From an uncultured archaeon (GTDB lineage: Archaea > Altiarchaeota > Altiarchaeia > IMC4 > SCGC-AAA252-I15), in assembly GCA_902384455.1 (NCBI GenBank), contig CABMCB010000014.1, positions 1 to 39,694 on the forward strand: DNA of 39,694 bases, read 5' to 3'. The notes under the pieces were generated by a model. That model did not search any database. It was given only the letters and a program-made list of their open reading frames with translations, and was not told where the DNA came from. The position numbers were made by a program, and so were the translations under genes. The number at the start of each line of letters is the position of its first letter. Position 1 is the stretch's first letter. This document shows positions 4,759 through 36,411 of the stretch, piece by piece.

Positions 4759-6060
4759 ATGGATTATGAAGAGTCGCGCAGGTACTTGGAGCGCTTAAGG
4801 TATAGGGGCGGGATTAAGCTGCGACTTGACGTCCCGCGCAGGCTGCTTAATGAACTCGGTAATCCCCAGAAGGAATACGATTGCGTCCATGTGGCGGGCA
4901 CAAACGGCAAAGGAAGCGTGTGCAACTACCTCTACCACATACTTCATACGGCAGGATACCGCGCAGGACTCTACTCAAAGCCCTACCTCATAGATTTCAC
5001 GGAAGAAATCCAAACAGACGGTCACCCCGTACCCCCAAAATTCGTATCCTCATTCATAACCACGCAGCAGCATAATGTCCGCGCGCTCTCGTCTCAAATC
5101 CGGCCGCCAACTGCATTCGAAATAGAGACCGCCCTCGCATTAACGTACTTCCGCGAAAAAGGAGTTCAGGCAGCCGTGCTTGAAACAGGACTGGGCGGCC
5201 GGCTTGACGCCACAAACGTAGTCTCGCCAGTTGTGTCGGCAATTACTCCAATAGACTTCGACCACATGGAATACTTAGGCAAAACTCTTCCCGCAATCGC
5301 CAAAGAAAAAGCGGCTATAATAAAATCCCGAACTCCTGCGGTGTCGGCAAAGCAAAGGCCCGAGGCGTTAAAGGTCCTTAAGGCGCGGGCAAAGAAGATT
5401 AACGCTCCCCTTACTATCGTGGGGGAAGACGTATTTTTCAAGCTGAAATCAAGCACAATCAAAGGAGTGCGCTTCAGTTACGACGGGAGAATCATGTCCT
5501 TCAAGAACGTGCGGCTGGGCAATCTAGGTTTCCATCAAGCGCACAACGCATCAATAGCATTGGCCACTACGGAATGCCTGATAGATAGAGGATACGAGCT
5601 TCCGAAAGCCAAAATACTAAACAGCCTTTATGACGCGAAGTGGTCTGGTCGGCTTGATGTCGTCCAGAAGAGTCCCACTGTCATAGTAGACGGAAGCCAC
5701 AATCCGCAGGGGTTGACGAATCTTATGGAGAACGTCAGGCACATTTTCCCTCGACGCCGCATAATCCTCGTTGTAGGCCTCACTGCGTCTAAGCCACTGG
5801 AGGCTTGCATAAAGACTCTTGCGCCTTACGTTGACGTGGTTTTTGCAACCGTGACAAAAAGAGTGGCCGCACATTCTCCTGCGGAAATATCAAATGAATT
5901 CAGAAAGCACGGTATCCAAACCTATCTCGCAAATGATGTAGCGGCGGCCGTTTCTAATGCGCTTAAGGCGGCAGGGAAAAATGATGTGGTCCTGATTACA
6001 GGCAGCCTTTACATGGCCGGCGACGCATTAAAAAGGTGGAGAAAAAAGATTATCGTATAA
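4759..6060 (+). CDS. folC: folylpolyglutamate synthase / dihydrofolate synthase
   Basis: This Mur-ligase-family enzyme adds glutamate to dihydropteroate or to tetrahydrofolate using ATP. It has 433 residues. The P-loop is HVAGTNGKGSV with GTNGKGS at residues 47-53; also seen are LETGLGGRLDATN, a TPIDFDHMEYLG segment, and VDGSHNP in the C-terminal domain. It lies one base before the folP ATG, giving a folC-folP pair that makes sense as consecutive folate steps. No strong TATA is seen between purH and folC, so it may be read from the upstream promoter. Function is secure; whether both activities are present cannot be told from sequence reading. Confidence 0.93.
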   Translation: MDYEESRRYLERLRYRGGIKLRLDVPRRLLNELGNPQKEYDCVHVAGTNGKGSVCNYLYHILHTAGYRAGLYSKPYLIDFTEEIQTDGHPVPPKFVSSFITTQQHNVRALSSQIRPPTAFEIETALALTYFREKGVQAAVLETGLGGRLDATNVVSPVVSAITPIDFDHMEYLGKTLPAIAKEKAAIIKSRTPAVSAKQRPEALKVLKARAKKINAPLTIVGEDVFFKLKSSTIKGVRFSYDGRIMSFKNVRLGNLGFHQAHNASIALATTECLIDRGYELPKAKILNSLYDAKWSGRLDVVQKSPTVIVDGSHNPQGLTNLMENVRHIFPRRRIILVVGLTASKPLEACIKTLAPYVDVVFATVTKRVAAHSPAEISNEFRKHGIQTYLANDVAAAVSNALKAAGKNDVVLITGSLYMAGDALKRWRKKIIV

Positions 6061-6061
6061 A

Positions 6062-6889
6062 ATGCCACCTCAGAAACATACGCTCACTTTTGGCAAGCGC
6101 ACTCTCGTGATGGGAATACTCAACGTCACACCCGACTCATTCAGCGACGGCGGAAAATACTTCTCTCAAAAAGAAGCGGCCGTCCACGCAAAAAAAATGG
6201 TTGCTGACGGCGCAGACATAATAGACGTCGGAGGTGAAAGCACCCGCCCGGGAAGCGCAGTCGTATCCGCAGAAGAAGAATTAAAACGAGTCATACCCGC
6301 AATAAAATCGGCGGCCGACCTCGGCGTTCCAATATCAATCGATACAAGCAAGCCGCAGGTGGCGAAGGCCGCGCTTGAGGCGGGCGCAACAATAGTAAAC
6401 GACGTTTATGGGCTGCGGCAGGATGGGATGGTTGATGTTGCGGCTGGTTTTGGTTGCCGTGTGGTGATAATGCACATGCAGGGTACGCCTAAGACTATGC
6501 AGGTTAATCCCACATACAGGGACGTCGTTGGGGACATAAAGGATTTCTTTAACGAGAGGATTGTTGCGTGTGAAAAAGCGGGAGTCAAAAAGAAGAACAT
6601 AATAATCGACCCCGGAGTCGGGTTCGGTAAAACCCTTCAGCATAACATTGAAATTATCCGGCGTCTTCAGGAATTCAAAAGTTTAGGGTGTCCGGTGCTT
6701 GTTGGTGTAAGCAGAAAAAGGTTCATAGGAGACCTGACGGGGTTGCCGACTGAGGAGCGCCTTGAGGGAACAATCGCAGCGGTCACTGCGTGCGTCCTAA
6801 ACGGCGCGGACGTTGTGCGCGTTCACGACGTTAAGGAATGTGTTCACGCAGTCAAAATCGCGGACTCAATCGCGCGTATAAAGGTTTAA
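6062..6889 (+). CDS. folP: dihydropteroate synthase
   Basis: The enzyme joins p-aminobenzoate to 6-hydroxymethyl-dihydropterin diphosphate. At 275 residues it is a normal single-domain DHPS. It shows NVTPDSFSDGG (residues 21-31), DVGGESTRPGS, SIDTSKPQV, the IVNDVYGL stretch, MHMQGTPKTMQ, IIDPGVGFGKT, the pABA/phosphate-binding GVSRKRFIG and RVHDV near the end. All expected elements are present. The ATG is one base after the folC stop. Sense-strand composition swings strongly inside the gene: G+T is 22 of 60 bases in 6241-6300, 44 of 60 in 6421-6480, and 26 of 60 in 6601-6660. A complete DHPS-FolC pair argues that this archaeon makes classical folate. Confidence 0.95.
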   Translation: MPPQKHTLTFGKRTLVMGILNVTPDSFSDGGKYFSQKEAAVHAKKMVADGADIIDVGGESTRPGSAVVSAEEELKRVIPAIKSAADLGVPISIDTSKPQVAKAALEAGATIVNDVYGLRQDGMVDVAAGFGCRVVIMHMQGTPKTMQVNPTYRDVVGDIKDFFNERIVACEKAGVKKKNIIIDPGVGFGKTLQHNIEIIRRLQEFKSLGCPVLVGVSRKRFIGDLTGLPTEERLEGTIAAVTACVLNGADVVRVHDVKECVHAVKIADSIARIKV

Positions 6890-7626: not shown

Positions 7627-7971
7627 ATGAGAGTTCAGGTCGTACTTCTGTTTTTGGCGTTGGTCGTGTACTCTTCAGGCTGTACCGAACAGGAAGGCGC
7701 TCCAAACACCGTTGTTAATGCCATGGAATCCGGAAACCCAAACGCCTGCTCAGACCTGAAGGAAGACTCAATCCGGGACGCATGCTACTCCGCCGCGGCT
7801 ATAGGGAACCTTAGCGTAGACTATTGCATGCGGGTGAAAAGCGACCAGTCAAGAAACATATGCATAATGGGCGTCGCAATAGGCACGCTCGACGAAGGGG
7901 CATGCGGACGCATAAGCGACGCAAACCAGCAGAAAAGCTGCAGAGAATCAGTTCAGGCCGCGCACGGCTAA
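7627..7971 (+). CDS. small secreted lipoprotein with a 26-residue cysteine repeat
   Basis: 114 residues. A signal peptide (about 1-18) ends in the lipobox-like YSSGC, so C19 is the likely lipid anchor. The rest has six Cys at 41, 53, 67, 79, 93 and 105, spaced 12, 14, 12, 14, 12. That makes almost three copies of a C-x11-C-x13 unit of 26 residues, probably helical hairpins tied by disulfides. I recall related short Cys-repeat lipoproteins from DPANN genomes but know no function. The 3' end overlaps the convergent kinase-like gene by 4 bases. It starts 39 bases after purN, behind a T-run, and so likely has its own promoter. Confidence 0.7.
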   Translation: MRVQVVLLFLALVVYSSGCTEQEGAPNTVVNAMESGNPNACSDLKEDSIRDACYSAAAIGNLSVDYCMRVKSDQSRNICIMGVAIGTLDEGACGRISDANQQKSCRESVQAAHG

Positions 7972-8555
7972 ATACTGCCGAACAAAAGAATAATCGCCGT
8001 CAGAATCCAAGGTATGCTTACGTTGTCGTCGTAGAAAACGTAGAACTCAACGATCGCGCCAGCAAAAGCAAGAGCCGCCGCCTCACGCAGAGGCACGAAA
8101 AACATCGCTGTTGCGGCGGCGAAAACGATGAAAGCGAACGTTCCTTCGGCCGACTTGTTGGCTATCCTGCGTGTTCCGCATGTTTTCCCAACCAATGTGG
8201 CCATGCCGTCGCCTACGGACAACACCATCATTACCGCGCAGGCCTCGTTCACCGGGAGCAGGAGCATTGGCGCAAGGACTCCGATTCCGTACATTAGGGC
8301 TCCTTTGTAGGGAAACGTTTCCTTGTCTTTCTCCCTCTCGAAGTGCCTAAGCAGGAAATCGTGCATGGGCCTCCATGTTTCGACTCTCTTGAGCGTAAGG
8401 ATGAATAGTATCGCAGCAATCATTGGGACGGCAATCCACCGGCCCCATATAGGCTTAAGCAGGTATACGCTGAACGTTATGGCCACTCCGCCCACCAGAT
8501 GGAAGATCTTCCTCTTCACCTCAAGCCGGAGTTCTTCTGCGTTCGAAGCCTTCAT
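7968..8555 (-). CDS. CTP-dependent dolichol/phytol/diacylglycerol kinase-like membrane protein
   Basis: A 195-residue polytopic membrane protein when started at the ATG at 8553-8555, which has a GGTG ribosome site; a GTG at 8567 would add four residues. It shows RKIFHLVGG near the N-terminus, a conserved PYKGALMYG segment and the signature SVGDGMATLVGKTCG followed by NKSAEGT. These are hallmarks of the SEC59/DGK1/VTE5 family, which phosphorylate polyprenols, phytol or diacylglycerol with CTP. In an archaeon the substrate could be dolichol or an archaeal lipid alcohol. It is the last gene of the overlapping minus-strand glycosyltransferase operon, consistent with supplying or recycling a lipid carrier. 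The family is fairly sure; the substrate is not. Confidence 0.8.
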   Translation of the reverse strand: MKASNAEELRLEVKRKIFHLVGGVAITFSVYLLKPIWGRWIAVPMIAAILFILTLKRVETWRPMHDFLLRHFEREKDKETFPYKGALMYGIGVLAPMLLLPVNEACAVMMVLSVGDGMATLVGKTCGTRRIANKSAEGTFAFIVFAAATAMFFVPLREAAALAFAGAIVEFYVFYDDNVSIPWILTAIILLFGSI

Positions 8556-8567
8556 ATCAATAAACAC

Positions 8568-9851
8568 CTAATACGCCTTCTCCCATTTATTCACGCCACC
8601 CATGGACGCCCGCGAAACAACCGCCTTAAGCAGCGGCCAGATGTAGAATAGCATGACCATTACTGAGTACGGGAAGAAGAAGAAGAACGCTATGAAATGG
8701 CGGACGTCGGGTCTGCCTTCAAATTTGATCAATCCAAGCGTAGTGTATGTTATGTTTAAAGCGAATGAGATGAGCACCAGAAGGAAGAATGTCGTGAAAG
8801 CGTATACTCCAGTCAGCGTCCTATACGCGTATTCTATCATCCCGTATGCTGAAAGCCAGCCGAAGAAATACCTGAATGCGTTGTAGGAGAACTGCTGGTT
8901 GTATGTGACGAAATACATGAAATACCCCTGCATAATCTGGTACGCAGTTATGGGGATTACCACGAGGCCGTGTATGAACCAGTAAATTTGCGTTGGAATG
9001 CCGTATAACCCTATGGCGCCGTAATTGGGATTTAGGAATACGTCTTTGTGTTTGCGCAGAACCTGGAGTGTTCCCCTTCCCCACCTTATACGTTGTTTAG
9101 CTAACGAGGGGAGAGTCTGCGGCAGATTAGTGTGGATTACGGCTTTAGGCGCCATAGTAAGCAGCCAGCCTTTTTTCCTCAACCTAAGGCCGATGTCTAT
9201 GTCCTCTGATAGGGTGTCTGTGGACAGTCCTCCTACTGCTTCGAGAGCTTCTTTCTTGAATGCCACAAGGCACGGAAGTATGTATGTGCTGTTTATGTTG
9301 TTGTACACCCACCTCCATGCGGCGGACAATACGAACTCAAAATCCTGAAACCACGTGATTGGGTTGCTGTTCATGTTGCCGCGTATGACGCCTGAAACCG
9401 CGCCGATTCTTTCGTCTGCGAGCGGCGCAACCACCTCCCTAAGCGTCTGTTTTTCCATCGTGGTGTCTGCGTCAATCACCACCAAAATCCCGTAACGCGC
9501 AGACTTAGACGCAAGGTTGATGGCCATGGACTTGCCTCCGTGACTGCCCTTAAGCAGGCGTATGCGGGAGTCATTTGCAGCCATCCTCTTGATTACCTCC
9601 TCCGTCCTGTCCGTTGAGCCGTCATCCACGACTAGAACCTCAAATTCGGCCGGGTAATCGCTGTCTAATACGCTTTCTAAAGTGGCTTCTATGTACTTCT
9701 CTTCGTTGTGGGCCGGAACGACAACAGACGTCGAAGGAAAAGAACCGCTGTAGCAAACGCCGCGCTTTGCCGGCTTAAGCATAAGGAAAATCCAGCCGGA
9801 GTAAATGGTTATGAGGATTACGAATACGACGGAGAGTATCTGCTCAATCAT
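8568..9851 (-). CDS. processive family 2 glycosyltransferase (membrane)
   Basis: 427 residues. One N-terminal helix (about 5-26) precedes a GT-A domain: VVVPAHNEE (43-51), VVDDGSTD (74-81), IDADT (126-130), the catalytic SEDIDIG (215-221) and QRIRWGRG (253-260). The last is the Q-x-x-RW motif of chain-forming enzymes such as cellulose, chitin, hyaluronan and poly-N-acetylglucosamine synthases. Several C-terminal helices (about 285-410) would form the export channel. There is no PilZ domain. Its ATG overlaps the stop of the thioredoxin-fold gene by 4 bases. It likely polymerises a beta-linked sugar across the membrane; the sugar cannot be told. A second, related enzyme is encoded two genes upstream. 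Confidence 0.88.
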   Translation of the reverse strand: MIEQILSVVFVILITIYSGWIFLMLKPAKRGVCYSGSFPSTSVVVPAHNEEKYIEATLESVLDSDYPAEFEVLVVDDGSTDRTEEVIKRMAANDSRIRLLKGSHGGKSMAINLASKSARYGILVVIDADTTMEKQTLREVVAPLADERIGAVSGVIRGNMNSNPITWFQDFEFVLSAAWRWVYNNINSTYILPCLVAFKKEALEAVGGLSTDTLSEDIDIGLRLRKKGWLLTMAPKAVIHTNLPQTLPSLAKQRIRWGRGTLQVLRKHKDVFLNPNYGAIGLYGIPTQIYWFIHGLVVIPITAYQIMQGYFMYFVTYNQQFSYNAFRYFFGWLSAYGMIEYAYRTLTGVYAFTTFFLLVLISFALNITYTTLGLIKFEGRPDVRHFIAFFFFFPYSVMVMLFYIWPLLKAVVSRASMGGVNKWEKAY

Positions 9852-10567
9852 GTCTCATGCTTGGTTTCGTTTATGGGGGGCGCGCAAATAGACAGCTGCG
9901 GCGAATATTCGCATAAAAGCCGAGTCATCTCCTCGTTGTCGTGCATGCCGCAGTGCGTGTGCCCCTCTATAACAACGCAAGGGAATTCAGTCACATTATA
10001 GACCTTCATGAGCGCGTTCACTGCGCTGACGTTCCTGTCCGCGTCAAAACTGAATATCATTATCTCCTGGTCAATCTTGAGGTTGATGTACGTAAGCACA
10101 AAACCTTGGTCCTCGCACTTCTGGTTCTTCTCGCACTCACCATAGAAGTAAAGAATCACAGTCTGATTGTACCCGCACTCCTGCTTAACCTTGCCCAGCA
10201 TGGAAAGATGAATAATCTCCCTGCGATTCAAACGCTTCTTCTCCTGAATGTAAAAATCGTCGCTAGAAAAATCCTTAATCATCTTCCTATACTCCCTTAT
10301 GCGCCCATCAAGCTTCCAAAGGCGGCCTTCCATGTCGTTGAGCGAGTCTATTAGTGCTCCGCATGTTTGTGGTGTTGCGTTTATGTAGTTTATGAGGTAG
10401 TATGTGGATTCTATTTCTTCGAAGTCCTCTATGATTTCGTCCATTCTCTGCGTGACGGAGTCTTCTCTTTTCTGGCTGAGGATCAGGTTGATGGTGTAAA
10501 GGCTACTGAAGATTAATGCCGTTATAATCAGTGCCGTGGCGTACAGCCTTACATCACTTCGCGCCAT
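9848..10567 (-). CDS. membrane-anchored thioredoxin-fold protein
   Basis: 239 residues from the ATG at 10565-10567, chosen because AGGTGA stands four bases before it; a longer frame to 10708 would lie entirely inside the upstream glycosyltransferase. One N-terminal helix (about 9-31) is followed by a helical, probably coiled region (about 35-125) and a C-terminal domain resembling thioredoxin: strand TVILYFYG, cysteines C145 and C151 (C-x5-C rather than CxxC), and a cis-proline-like FPCVVI with P196. It is predicted to face outside the cell. Start overlaps the upstream gene by 19 bases and the end overlaps the next by 4, so it is translationally coupled to two glycosyltransferases. Redox role or structural role is open. 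Confidence 0.6.
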   Translation of the reverse strand: MARSDVRLYATALIITALIFSSLYTINLILSQKREDSVTQRMDEIIEDFEEIESTYYLINYINATPQTCGALIDSLNDMEGRLWKLDGRIREYRKMIKDFSSDDFYIQEKKRLNRREIIHLSMLGKVKQECGYNQTVILYFYGECEKNQKCEDQGFVLTYINLKIDQEIMIFSFDADRNVSAVNALMKVYNVTEFPCVVIEGHTHCGMHDNEEMTRLLCEYSPQLSICAPPINETKHET

Positions 10568-11811
10568 TTCACCTGTTTTTTCGCTGCTACAATGTATATG
10601 GAGATAATCCAGAATATGTGGTACGGCAGGAAGAAGAATAGGAAGCTTATGAATCCGAAGAGGTTTTTGCGGATGCTTTCGCCGAATATTTTCATGCCAA
10701 CTATGCACGCCGTCAGGTTCATGATGAACGGCGTAATCGCAAGAAGTATGAACATGTTGACTGTGGCGTAGCCGTCGAACTGGTAGTTTCTTATGAAGTT
10801 GGCGGCGAAAGGAGTGAAGTCGAATCCTACGCGGTAGTAGTTTTCAATCACCGCGGAAGTGTTTTGGATGAACATGAGTACTGTCGCTATGAACAGGGCT
10901 ATGCCGAGGAAGTTTCCGCCGTAATTTAGCGGCAAAAAGAACATCCCGAAGTTGCCAAGCGACCTGTTGAAGAAGGCGTCCTTGTGGGTTATCAGCGTCT
11001 GTATCGTGCCGGTGTACCAGCGTTTCCTCTGGAAGTACAAGTCTCTTATGTTGTCTGGGACGCGAGTGTAAGCAACGGCTCCGGGACAGCAGGCGATACG
11101 TTGGCCTGCCTTCTGCATGCGGTAAACGATTTCAGTGTCCTCAACAATGCTTCTGGGGTCGAAGCCGCCAATCTTAATCACGGCCTCTCTCTTGTACATG
11201 CTGAATTGTCCCGGCGTCAGGTATAGGCTGTCTAGGTATGAGATGATTTTTGGGTAGAATCCTAGTCCCAGGTTGTATTCTACTGCGATGATGCGTTCAA
11301 GCCAGTTTTTAGGTTCCAGTACGGCGACTCTGACTATGACGGCGCAGATGTTGTCTTCTTCGTAAAAGAACGGGAGCGTCTTTTTCAGGACGTCCGGCTC
11401 AACGACGGTGTCTGCGTCTATCGTGCCTACGAATTCGCTTGTCGCCTTCTGGAATCCCACGTTCAACGCGGCCGCTTTGCCGGCGTTCTTCTGTTCGACG
11501 TAAACTATGTCGCCGCGCTCGGCGTACGGCTTAAGTATGTCGCCGGTCCTGTCTTTGCTTCCGTCGTTGACTACGATAACATCAAGCTTGTCTTTGGGGT
11601 AATCCAGACGGAGGAGCGAATCCACAGTCTGAGCAATGCCCCGCTCCTCATTGAAAGCGGGAACAACGACGGAAATCCGCGGAAGCTCAGTTGGTCCCTT
11701 AGGAATCCTATGGAAATCCTTTCTGTTCCCAATGAAAGTTAGGGCGGTCACGATAAAGAAGAAGGTGATGATGAACCACACGACGTACACCAACGCTAAA
11801 AAATTGTCCAT
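10549..11811 (-). CDS. processive family 2 glycosyltransferase (membrane)
   Basis: 420 residues from the ATG at 11809-11811; four residues more if the ATG at 11823 is used. Layout matches its neighbour at 8568: an N-terminal helix, then VVVPAFNEE, VVNDGSKD, IDADTVV, VEDTEI and QRKRWYTG (the Q-x-x-RW motif), and three to four C-terminal helices. It is similar in plan but clearly diverged from the second copy, so the two may make different linkages or act as a pair. It is the first gene of the minus-strand operon; a TATA-like CATATTTTAG (11841-11850 on the plus strand) lies about 35 bases before the start. The acceptor and the sugar are unknown. Confidence 0.88.
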   Translation of the reverse strand: MDNFLALVYVVWFIITFFFIVTALTFIGNRKDFHRIPKGPTELPRISVVVPAFNEERGIAQTVDSLLRLDYPKDKLDVIVVNDGSKDRTGDILKPYAERGDIVYVEQKNAGKAAALNVGFQKATSEFVGTIDADTVVEPDVLKKTLPFFYEEDNICAVIVRVAVLEPKNWLERIIAVEYNLGLGFYPKIISYLDSLYLTPGQFSMYKREAVIKIGGFDPRSIVEDTEIVYRMQKAGQRIACCPGAVAYTRVPDNIRDLYFQRKRWYTGTIQTLITHKDAFFNRSLGNFGMFFLPLNYGGNFLGIALFIATVLMFIQNTSAVIENYYRVGFDFTPFAANFIRNYQFDGYATVNMFILLAITPFIMNLTACIVGMKIFGESIRKNLFGFISFLFFFLPYHIFWIISIYIVAAKKQVKWREVM

Positions 11812-34594: not shown

Positions 34595-35533
34595 TTATTT
34601 TCCGTCAGGGTTCTTGATTTCCCTCGGTTTTCTGTATGGCATGTGGCTTATTAGTTGGCTTAGGCGTTCTTTGGTGACTACTGTTTCGTCTCCGAGTGTT
34701 AGTTCCAGTTTTTTGGTGGTCTGGCCTATTTCGACTATTGGGCAGTGGTGTGCGGCTGCTGTTTTGACTATTTTGGGTACGTCTTTTTTTGCGACGAATA
34801 TGAGGTATGTTCCCATGTATCGGCTTAGGCGGCTGTATGGTATGCTTGTTATGTTTGCTCCTTTGCGGCTTTTGACGAGCACTTCCATTAGGTTTCCGAA
34901 CCATCCGCCTCTGCTTGCGTCTTTGCTTGCGTGAACGTCGATTCCCTGAGTTAGGATGTCGAGGTATGTTTCGAATTTCTTTTTGGCGCGAAACACTCTT
35001 TCTCCTGTCGAACCTTCTACGACGTCCCCCAGCATCAGTATTCTGTCGCCTGCGCGCGCTCCTCCGTCGGGGACGGGCTTGGCGACAAGCTCTCCTACGA
35101 CAAAGAAGCTGACGCACGGAGTCAGATTATTTTCCATCTGAGTGTTCCCGCCAAGCACGGGAACTCCAAGGCCCAAAGACTGCTTCTTTATGTCCTCGGC
35201 GACCTCATTCGCTTCTTCGATGCTGCCTACTTGCATGCTGTCCAGAGCGTAAAGAGGCCGTCCTCCCATGACTACGATGTCGCTGCACGTGTGGACGAGG
35301 CCGGTCTTCCTTCCTATTTTGAGGGGGTATGGTCCTTCCATGTTTACGACTGTGTTTCCTACGATGACTGCGTCGTCTCCTTGTTGTATGCCGAATCGGA
35401 GGTTTTTGACGTGGTCGTCCATGTGCCAGAATATTTTACGGAGGCGATGTGTTTCGCCCATGTGGGCTATTCCCCTCTCCATCTCCTCCTTTATTCCTCC
35501 TGGCGCTTCGTCGTATGGTTCTTCTTCAGTCAT
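34595..35533 (-). CDS. PurM/ThiL/SelD-like ATP-binding family protein
   Basis: 312 residues from the ATG at 35531-35533. The start is uncertain: a TTG at 35563 and an ATG at 35480-35482 behind GGAGG are alternatives. GDDAVIV (about residues 52-58), CSDIVVMGGRPLYALDSM and VPVLGGNT are the signature of the AIR-synthase (PurM) superfamily, which includes ThiL, SelD, HypE and the methanogenesis-marker-2 group. It does not read as true PurM or ThiL. Such proteins phosphorylate or activate a substrate with ATP. Its sense strand is strongly A/C-rich near the 3' end. It is divergent from a glycosyltransferase gene, with a 161-base gap. Confidence 0.7.
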   Translation of the reverse strand: MTEEEPYDEAPGGIKEEMERGIAHMGETHRLRKIFWHMDDHVKNLRFGIQQGDDAVIVGNTVVNMEGPYPLKIGRKTGLVHTCSDIVVMGGRPLYALDSMQVGSIEEANEVAEDIKKQSLGLGVPVLGGNTQMENNLTPCVSFFVVGELVAKPVPDGGARAGDRILMLGDVVEGSTGERVFRAKKKFETYLDILTQGIDVHASKDASRGGWFGNLMEVLVKSRKGANITSIPYSRLSRYMGTYLIFVAKKDVPKIVKTAAAHHCPIVEIGQTTKKLELTLGDETVVTKERLSQLISHMPYRKPREIKNPDGK

Positions 35534-35694
35534 CTTTTTTGGTGGCTGCTCTTTGGGCGGCAAGAGCGTGCCGTGCTTTCAGCGGTTGTTCGCGTCATCA
35601 TATGTCAGGTCGCCCATCAATCATCATTAAGCAGTTACTATTCGCCGTCCCCCCTCTAAAAGCCTTTTTACCTGCCGCGCGCAGTAATAACGAA

Positions 35695-36411
35695 ATGCCT
35701 GCGTCGGTGCTATTGCTTCTGCCTGCTTTAAACGAGGAGAAGGCGCTTCAGGCGTTGTCTAAAGAAATCCCCAAGAAATACTCTGTTGTCGTGGTGGATT
35801 CCCAAAGCACAGACGGAACAGTCGAAGTCGCACGCTCACTCGGCTACGCCGCAATACCTGTTTCATACGGCCGCGGCAAGGGTAGTGGGGTGCGCACTGG
35901 AATGGATTATTTTCTTAAGGGGCGTTGGGATTATCTTGCGCTTATTGACTGCGATTATTCTGATGACCCTGCTGACGTGGAGGGTGCTATAAAGTTCCTT
36001 AAAGACAGCGGGCTTGATGTTGTGATGGGCATTAGGGACATGAGGAAGCAGCATCGTTTTTTGGGCGTCGCTACGGCGGTGGTTAAGTCGGTTATGCCGC
36101 CGCTGTCTCGTCTTGCCATAGGCCGGCGCATATCCGACCCGGTCACAGGATTCTATGTTTTCCGCCGTAGCGCTGTGGAGGCGGTGCTTCCTTCTTTGCG
36201 GTGCGTGGACTTCGAGTTCGATTTTGAAGTGATATACCACATGTGGCGGCTTGGAATCCGGTTCGGAGAGTACCCAGTCAACTTTAGGAGGCGGATTGGG
36301 GTGACAAAATTCACACATCTTTTGCGCCTTAAGCACTTTTATTACGCCGGAAAATACACGGCATTTTCATTGAGAGACAGGATTACCGGCACCGCAAAAA
36401 TCAAAGCGTGA
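35695..36411 (+). CDS. family 2 glycosyltransferase, dolichyl-phosphate mannose synthase-like
   Basis: 238 residues from the ATG at 35695, the first with a proper GT-A start; the frame is open further back to 35449 but those residues are antisense to the neighbour. VLLLLPALNEEKAL, VVVDSQSTDGT, GRGKGSGVRTGMDY, LIDCDYSDDP and DPVTGFYVF fit the DPM1/UDP-glucose-dolichyl transferase group. No membrane helix at the end, so it resembles the soluble, eukaryote-like DPM1. It would load a sugar onto a polyprenyl phosphate for glycan or glycoprotein assembly. A TATA-like CTAAAAGCC lies about 38 bases upstream. Confidence 0.85.
   Translation: MPASVLLLLPALNEEKALQALSKEIPKKYSVVVVDSQSTDGTVEVARSLGYAAIPVSYGRGKGSGVRTGMDYFLKGRWDYLALIDCDYSDDPADVEGAIKFLKDSGLDVVMGIRDMRKQHRFLGVATAVVKSVMPPLSRLAIGRRISDPVTGFYVFRRSAVEAVLPSLRCVDFEFDFEVIYHMWRLGIRFGEYPVNFRRRIGVTKFTHLLRLKHFYYAGKYTAFSLRDRITGTAKIKA

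Follow-up and report, generated by a model that had tools for sequence, protein, structure and literature searches.

A conserved glycosyltransferase–thioredoxin-fold gene pair in Altiarchaeota and in small archaeal genomes: a candidate two-subunit membrane glycan synthase

The poly-β-1,6-GlcNAc synthase PgaC/IcaA is a family-2 membrane synthase encoded beside a small membrane partner, PgaD/IcaD, which is a two-helix protein without a thioredoxin domain. The hyaluronan and cellulose synthases (HAS and BcsA) carry the QxxRW motif, and the archaeal mannosyltransferase of Pyrobaculum calidifontis (PcManGT, PDB 6YV7) has a minimal cellulose-synthase-like fold, for which we know of no thioredoxin partner. 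Among thioredoxin-fold proteins, the Ost3/Ost6 subunit of the oligosaccharyltransferase, which has four membrane helices and is associated with STT3, places a membrane-anchored extracytoplasmic thioredoxin fold in the service of a glycosylation enzyme. Here, we describe an archaeal gene pair that couples a family-2 membrane glycosyltransferase (GT1) to a membrane-anchored thioredoxin-fold protein (TRX). The pair is thus like PgaC/IcaA and PgaD/IcaD in that the partner is encoded beside the synthase, but TRX is unlike PgaD/IcaD in having a thioredoxin domain. In the portions of the literature accessible to our searches, we found no published description of such a pair. The TRX family might equal one of the DPANN-specific dark clusters of PMC6393860, such as those of NEQ255 and NEQ484.

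The window, a 39,694-nucleotide stretch of DNA, comes from an Altiarchaeota genome assembly of 103 contigs and 2.41 Mb, whose nearest named relatives are Candidatus Altiarchaeota records, and contains four adjoining open reading frames on the minus strand, which encode GT1, TRX, a second transferase (GT2) and a multi-helix membrane protein (KIN) (Table 1). When re-read, all four frames are open and arranged as a previous sequence-only reading had described them. The GT1 stop codon ends at 10549 and the TRX ATG is at 10567, giving an overlap of 19 bases, while the TRX stop codon (9850-9848) and the GT2 ATG (9851-9849) overlap by 4 bases (ATGA). GT2 then ends at 8568, and KIN starts either at an abutting GTG (8567) or, after a 12-base gap, at an ATG (8555). 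GT1 and an SRP54 gene are arranged head to head, and past KIN comes a group of folate and purine genes; the presence of a Mur-ligase-type protein and dihydropteroate synthase in this group (4759-6889) suggests folate synthesis in this altiarchaeote. On the plus strand, a small lipoprotein-like protein is encoded at 7627-7971, its end overlapping that of KIN by 4 bases. Farther away, another family-2 glycosyltransferase gene (35449-36411) adjoins the gene for a class I lysyl-tRNA synthetase.

Table 1. Genes and sequence features of the locus, with positions in the window.
Feature	Position	Strand	Remarks
GT1: membrane family-2 glycosyltransferase, partner of TRX	10549..11811	-	420 aa; D/DxD/ED/QRKRW motifs
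TRX: one membrane helix, three-helix stalk and thioredoxin-fold domain	9848..10567	-	239 aa
GT2: second membrane family-2 glycosyltransferase, in a clade apart from GT1	8568..9851	-	427 aa; QRIRW
KIN: multi-helix membrane protein, CTP-dependent polyprenol-kinase-like	7968..8567	-	199 aa
ATGG: TRX start codon overlapping the final GT1 Trp codon	10564..10567	-	same arrangement in 69/97 pairs
Codon of invariant stalk cysteine C69	10361..10363	-	Cys in 128/132 aligned rows, gaps in the other 4
Codon of invariant stalk cysteine C131	10175..10177	-	Cys in 129/132 aligned rows, gaps in the other 3
C145-x5-C151, at the thioredoxin active-site position	10115..10135	-	varies within the family
Codon of invariant cis-proline P196 of the thioredoxin fold	9980..9982	-	Pro in 126/132 aligned rows, gaps in the other 6

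Homologs of TRX extend well beyond this genome. A protein search with TRX (E ≤ 0.001) returned matches in 30 of 61 relatives, and a profile search returned matches in 158 of 394 archaeal genomes. By hand count, 123 of these 158 genomes have strong matches (E below 1e-12); the weak matches are mostly partial, many of them in larger genomes, and resemble ordinary thioredoxins. Outside the class, the genomes with strong matches measure 0.3 to 1.6 Mb, a size that fits DPANN archaea. The named records with the pair are assigned to Altiarchaeota, Woesearchaeota and Nanoarchaeota, with a few labelled simply as "archaeon" or Euryarchaeota, and taken with the small genomes they point to DPANN membership of the carriers outside the class. 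Stop codons inside the matches in G001 and G002 proved not to be real breaks, as intact reading frames are present. A viral source was not supported, as the viral contigs searched gave no relative, and no fusion of the transferase with TRX was found among the reading frames read.

The conserved core of the locus is the GT1–TRX pair, as seen from flanks read in 122 genomes (57 family codes, nearly all of them small genomes). L213, a duplicate of the L061 locus, and a single fragment of L195 were removed before counting. A GT1-like gene lies directly upstream on the same strand of 98 of the 128 TRX genes. Of the others, 10 are divergent from such a gene, 2 precede one and 1 converges with one. 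In all, 111 of the 128 are adjacent to a GT1-like gene in some orientation, in keeping with the earlier suggestion that the middle protein belongs with the transferases. In 8 of the 10 divergent arrangements, the GT1 profile gives the transferase no more than 165 bits, so that it may represent another subfamily. Among the 17 non-adjacent TRX genes, one of which is at a contig edge, several have a GT-C gene (Alg9/PMT-like) between or instead, and some are near the end of the fetched piece. As a control, a transferase was found directly upstream of 17 of 671 other genes of the same loci (120 aa or more; genes within 300 bases of the end of a fetched piece left out) versus 90 of 120 TRX genes, with a profile that was built from TRX-linked transferases and so favours TRX in this comparison. 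For the named records, the transferase is directly upstream at 25 of 27 loci, and the other two are contig-end cuts. We regard the GT1–TRX linkage as firm, and chance falls far short of explaining the arrangement. Variants of TRX itself were also seen: in family f23 (L061, 6389-8515; L166, 2371-4500), one copy of TRX continues into a fused C-terminal region of ~490 aa and lies near or adjoining a second copy. Another copy (L204, 3367-4781) adjoins the gene for a cis-prenyltransferase (PF01255); enzymes of this kind make polyprenol carriers.

The two genes of the pair also share a start site. The TRX start codon lies on the last Trp codon of the transferase in 69 of 97 pairs (ATG in 59), compared with a chance expectation of ~24%, which is an estimate from the base composition before TGG codons in the transferase genes in three frames. 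Of 50 families, 35 have one or more such pairs. The longer overlap in the window is this same Trp-codon start followed by four extra GT1 codons. The phylogenies of the two proteins likewise correspond. Over 95 pairs, distances in the transferase and TRX trees are correlated with a Mantel r of 0.78 (best of 2000 permutations, 0.13), a correlation that is partly species history, and 61 of the 95 have a nearest neighbour common to both trees; L036, L038 and L175, in which the transferase is partial, were omitted. Second copies show the same correspondence: the four nearest relatives of the second pair of G005, all from other families, are identical in the two trees, and the f3 genomes have second pairs that also group in the same way in each. 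The window genome has a second pair as well, on contig 18, for which the nearest neighbours in the two trees agree only in part.

Both window transferases belong to Pfam family 2 (E 1.9e-34 for GT1 and 1.1e-31 for GT2), score 106.4 and 103.8 bits, respectively, with PF13641 of the PF13641/PF00535 family (cut-off 27) and carry the full motif set, including the Q-x-x-RW motif that had been read in each. Among the partner transferases, QxxRW is found in 95/95, DxD in 94/95 and ED in 91/95. The sequence-only reading had gone on to call them processive polymerases of the BcsA/NodC type, and of this claim the family-2 synthase motifs and fold stand, while the scores fall below the NCBIfam cut-offs for both BcsA (TIGR03030; 85.8 bits for GT1 and 65.9 for GT2 versus 699.1) and NodC (TIGR04242; 88.5 and 77.5 versus 550). 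The best NCBIfam match of both is PgaC/IcaA (TIGR03937; 164.2 and 158 bits), which is also below its cut-off of 422.3. Structures of GT1 and TRX were predicted separately, as single proteins. In the GT1 model (pLDDT 91.7), the closest folds are those of the Chlorella virus hyaluronan synthase (Z 32.0, rmsd 3.1, 369 residues aligned) and PcManGT (Z 31.1, rmsd 3.2, 333 of 345 residues aligned), which are tied. GT1 may therefore be a polymerising enzyme or one that adds sugars to a lipid-linked chain, and its assignment as a polymerase is not settled. It resembles HAS and BcsA in fold, including the membrane part, but is only ~14-19% identical to them, is shorter and, by Pfam, has no PilZ domain. 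The identity with PcManGT, which is reported to be an N-glycan enzyme, is 21%.

The predicted architecture of TRX is one in which we are confident. In the model (pLDDT 88.3), a long helix (residues 6-62) is followed by two more (66-96 and 104-131) and then by the thioredoxin fold, which has the β-α-β-α-β-β-α order and the cis-proline (Pro in 126/126 rows with a letter) and aligns with solved thioredoxins (1v98: Z 13.0, rmsd 1.8, 86 residues aligned). A designed helical bundle resembles the three-helix part (Z 14.3), although between helical bundles such a match may reflect a common arrangement only. Of 95 members, 92 have a single membrane helix, and in 78 the N-side of the helix is the more positive, which places the domain outside the cell. 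The outer part of TRX has more glycosylation sequons than shuffling would lead one to expect (190 versus 135), and the catalytic part of the transferase has fewer (94 versus 119). The earlier description of an extracytoplasmic thioredoxin-like protein is thus upheld by the modelled fold, by the topology and by Pfam matches to Thioredoxin_3 in 9 of 30 homologs, although Pfam does not find the fold in the window TRX alone.

In contrast to thioredoxins, with which it shares the fold and cis-proline, TRX is anchored by a membrane helix, bears two invariant cysteines on its three-helix stalk and can dispense with the active-site pair. C69, C131 and P196 are invariant wherever an aligned row has a letter, and the secondary structure of the model puts the two cysteines at the same end of the stalk, where they probably form a disulfide on the outer side. 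The active-site position, by comparison, reads CxxC in 70 of 129 TRX reading frames, C-x5-C in 7, C-x3-C in 6 and a single cysteine in 3, with none in 43. The window TRX has C-x5-C in place of the CxxC of oxidoreductases. This spacing had been singled out as unusual, and it is indeed present, but it is confined to close relatives of the window TRX and represents a local variant of an often-missing pair; we therefore rejected it as the functional key.

The four-gene unit exists as first described, but the real unit is the GT1–TRX pair, of which the four-gene form is the Altiarchaeales version. The order GT1–TRX–GT2 is contiguous in 9 Altiarchaeales genomes, including that of the window, and is thus kept beyond one strain; the complete same-strand order of four genes occurs in the window, L036, L038 (with GT1 cut by the contig end) and L039. 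Ten GT2 sequences form a clade separate from GT1 with a support of 1.0, on which ground we rejected a recent GT1/GT2 duplication; this clade is seen in Altiarchaeales. Apart from the window, 13 Altiarchaeales loci contain KIN, which also comes immediately after TRX in both f60 genomes. GT2 and KIN are thus mainly Altiarchaeales additions, with KIN following TRX in one other family too. KIN has relatives in 84 of 121 archaea, mostly at other genomic sites, and is therefore probably a general archaeal lipid kinase that was recruited to this locus. Its proposed likeness to polyprenol kinases rests on its conserved stretches (KRxxxH, GDxxxxxxGxxxG and KSxEG), which we take to be motifs of the CTP-dependent lipid kinases of the SEC59/DGK1/VTE5 type, likewise small multi-helix membrane proteins. 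A Pfam scan of the window KIN itself gave no significant match, and PF01148 (cytidylyltransferase/polyprenol kinase clan) is matched by only 1 of 14 KIN relatives (E 0.0037).

On balance, we lean towards GT1 and TRX being a two-subunit membrane-bound glycan synthase in which TRX is extracellular and mainly non-redox. GT1 would take a nucleotide sugar on the cytoplasmic side and extend a glycan at or through the membrane, with TRX anchored beside it by its one helix in a physical complex. The three-helix stalk, closed by the putative C69–C131 disulfide, would carry the thioredoxin-fold domain outside the cell, where it may bind or guide the emerging glycan, a GT-C enzyme or an acceptor protein, rather than act mainly as a disulfide oxidoreductase. 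In Altiarchaeales, a second synthase (GT2) would have been added to the pair, and KIN may be a polyprenol kinase that supplies or recycles a lipid phosphate carrier. The topology of TRX and the neighbouring GT-C enzymes support an envelope glycan role, as the sequence-only reading had proposed in suggesting a polysaccharide or glycolipid system.

GT1 could instead add one or a few sugars, as PcManGT does, to a dolichol-linked oligosaccharide for protein N-glycosylation, with TRX as an analog of the Ost3/Ost6 thioredoxin domain that assists in presenting acceptor proteins. Such a role agrees with the standing of PcManGT as one of the two closest folds and with the neighbourhood of the pair, where Alg9/PMT-like GT-C genes are common and PMT_2-type GT-C enzymes make up 10 of the 45 downstream neighbours scanned (of 78 listed; same-strand only). 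STT3/AglB is present in 108 of 121 relatives, including the window genome, but because AglB is nearly universal and TRX is not, their co-occurrence is uninformative. A link to AglB was sought among the immediate neighbours of the pair and not found, as none of the 98 same-strand genes scanned (45 downstream and 53 upstream) matches STT3. TRX adjoins GT1 rather than AglB, with one near case noticed (G105, STT3 within ~8 kb), and its single membrane helix contrasts with the four of Ost3/Ost6, although TRX may similarly serve a glycosylation enzyme. We consider this N-glycosylation role rather unlikely.

It is less likely still that TRX is an envelope thiol-disulfide oxidoreductase, acting on the redox state of GT1, S-layer or appendage proteins or as a redox gate of GT1. 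The thioredoxin fold, the invariant cis-proline and the retention of two active-site cysteines in 83 of the 129 reading frames would all suit such an enzyme, and many members may have a redox role. However, the other 46 lack the pair or have a single cysteine, and a quick tree calls for eight changes or more, while the two cysteines outside the active site never change. Because the stalk cysteines and the cis-proline are invariant and the catalytic-type pair is not, TRX more probably plays a structural or binding part as a subunit of a membrane glycan synthase than acts as an oxidoreductase, and we infer that its fold is kept for binding rather than redox work. Finally, the genes could merely be co-transcribed envelope genes without a direct partnership. 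The pair is often found beside housekeeping genes, with PTH2 at 12 and TruD at 10 of the 53 upstream neighbours scanned (of 80 listed; same-strand only) and SRP54 beside the pair in Altiarchaeales. Yet the pair is constant across 57 family codes while its other neighbours change, and the trees of the two proteins match, those of the second copies included, making simple co-transcription very improbable.

Returning to the proposed two-subunit synthase, we suggest only tentatively that it is a hallmark of DPANN archaea, present since their common ancestor, that its redox-dispensable TRX is the extracellular receiving subunit of a cellulose-synthase-like enzyme and that its product is a surface glycan needed for the envelope or for host contact. 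Little is known of surface assembly in small symbiotic archaea, since almost none have been cultured. The retention of the pair across so many families, its invariant stalk and its matched ancestry make it a direct experimental target. If the reading is correct, TRX would give cellulose-synthase-like enzymes a new type of partner and add another example of a non-redox thioredoxin fold in glycan assembly, and the pair in the window would offer a testable lead on how these uncultured archaea build their surface.
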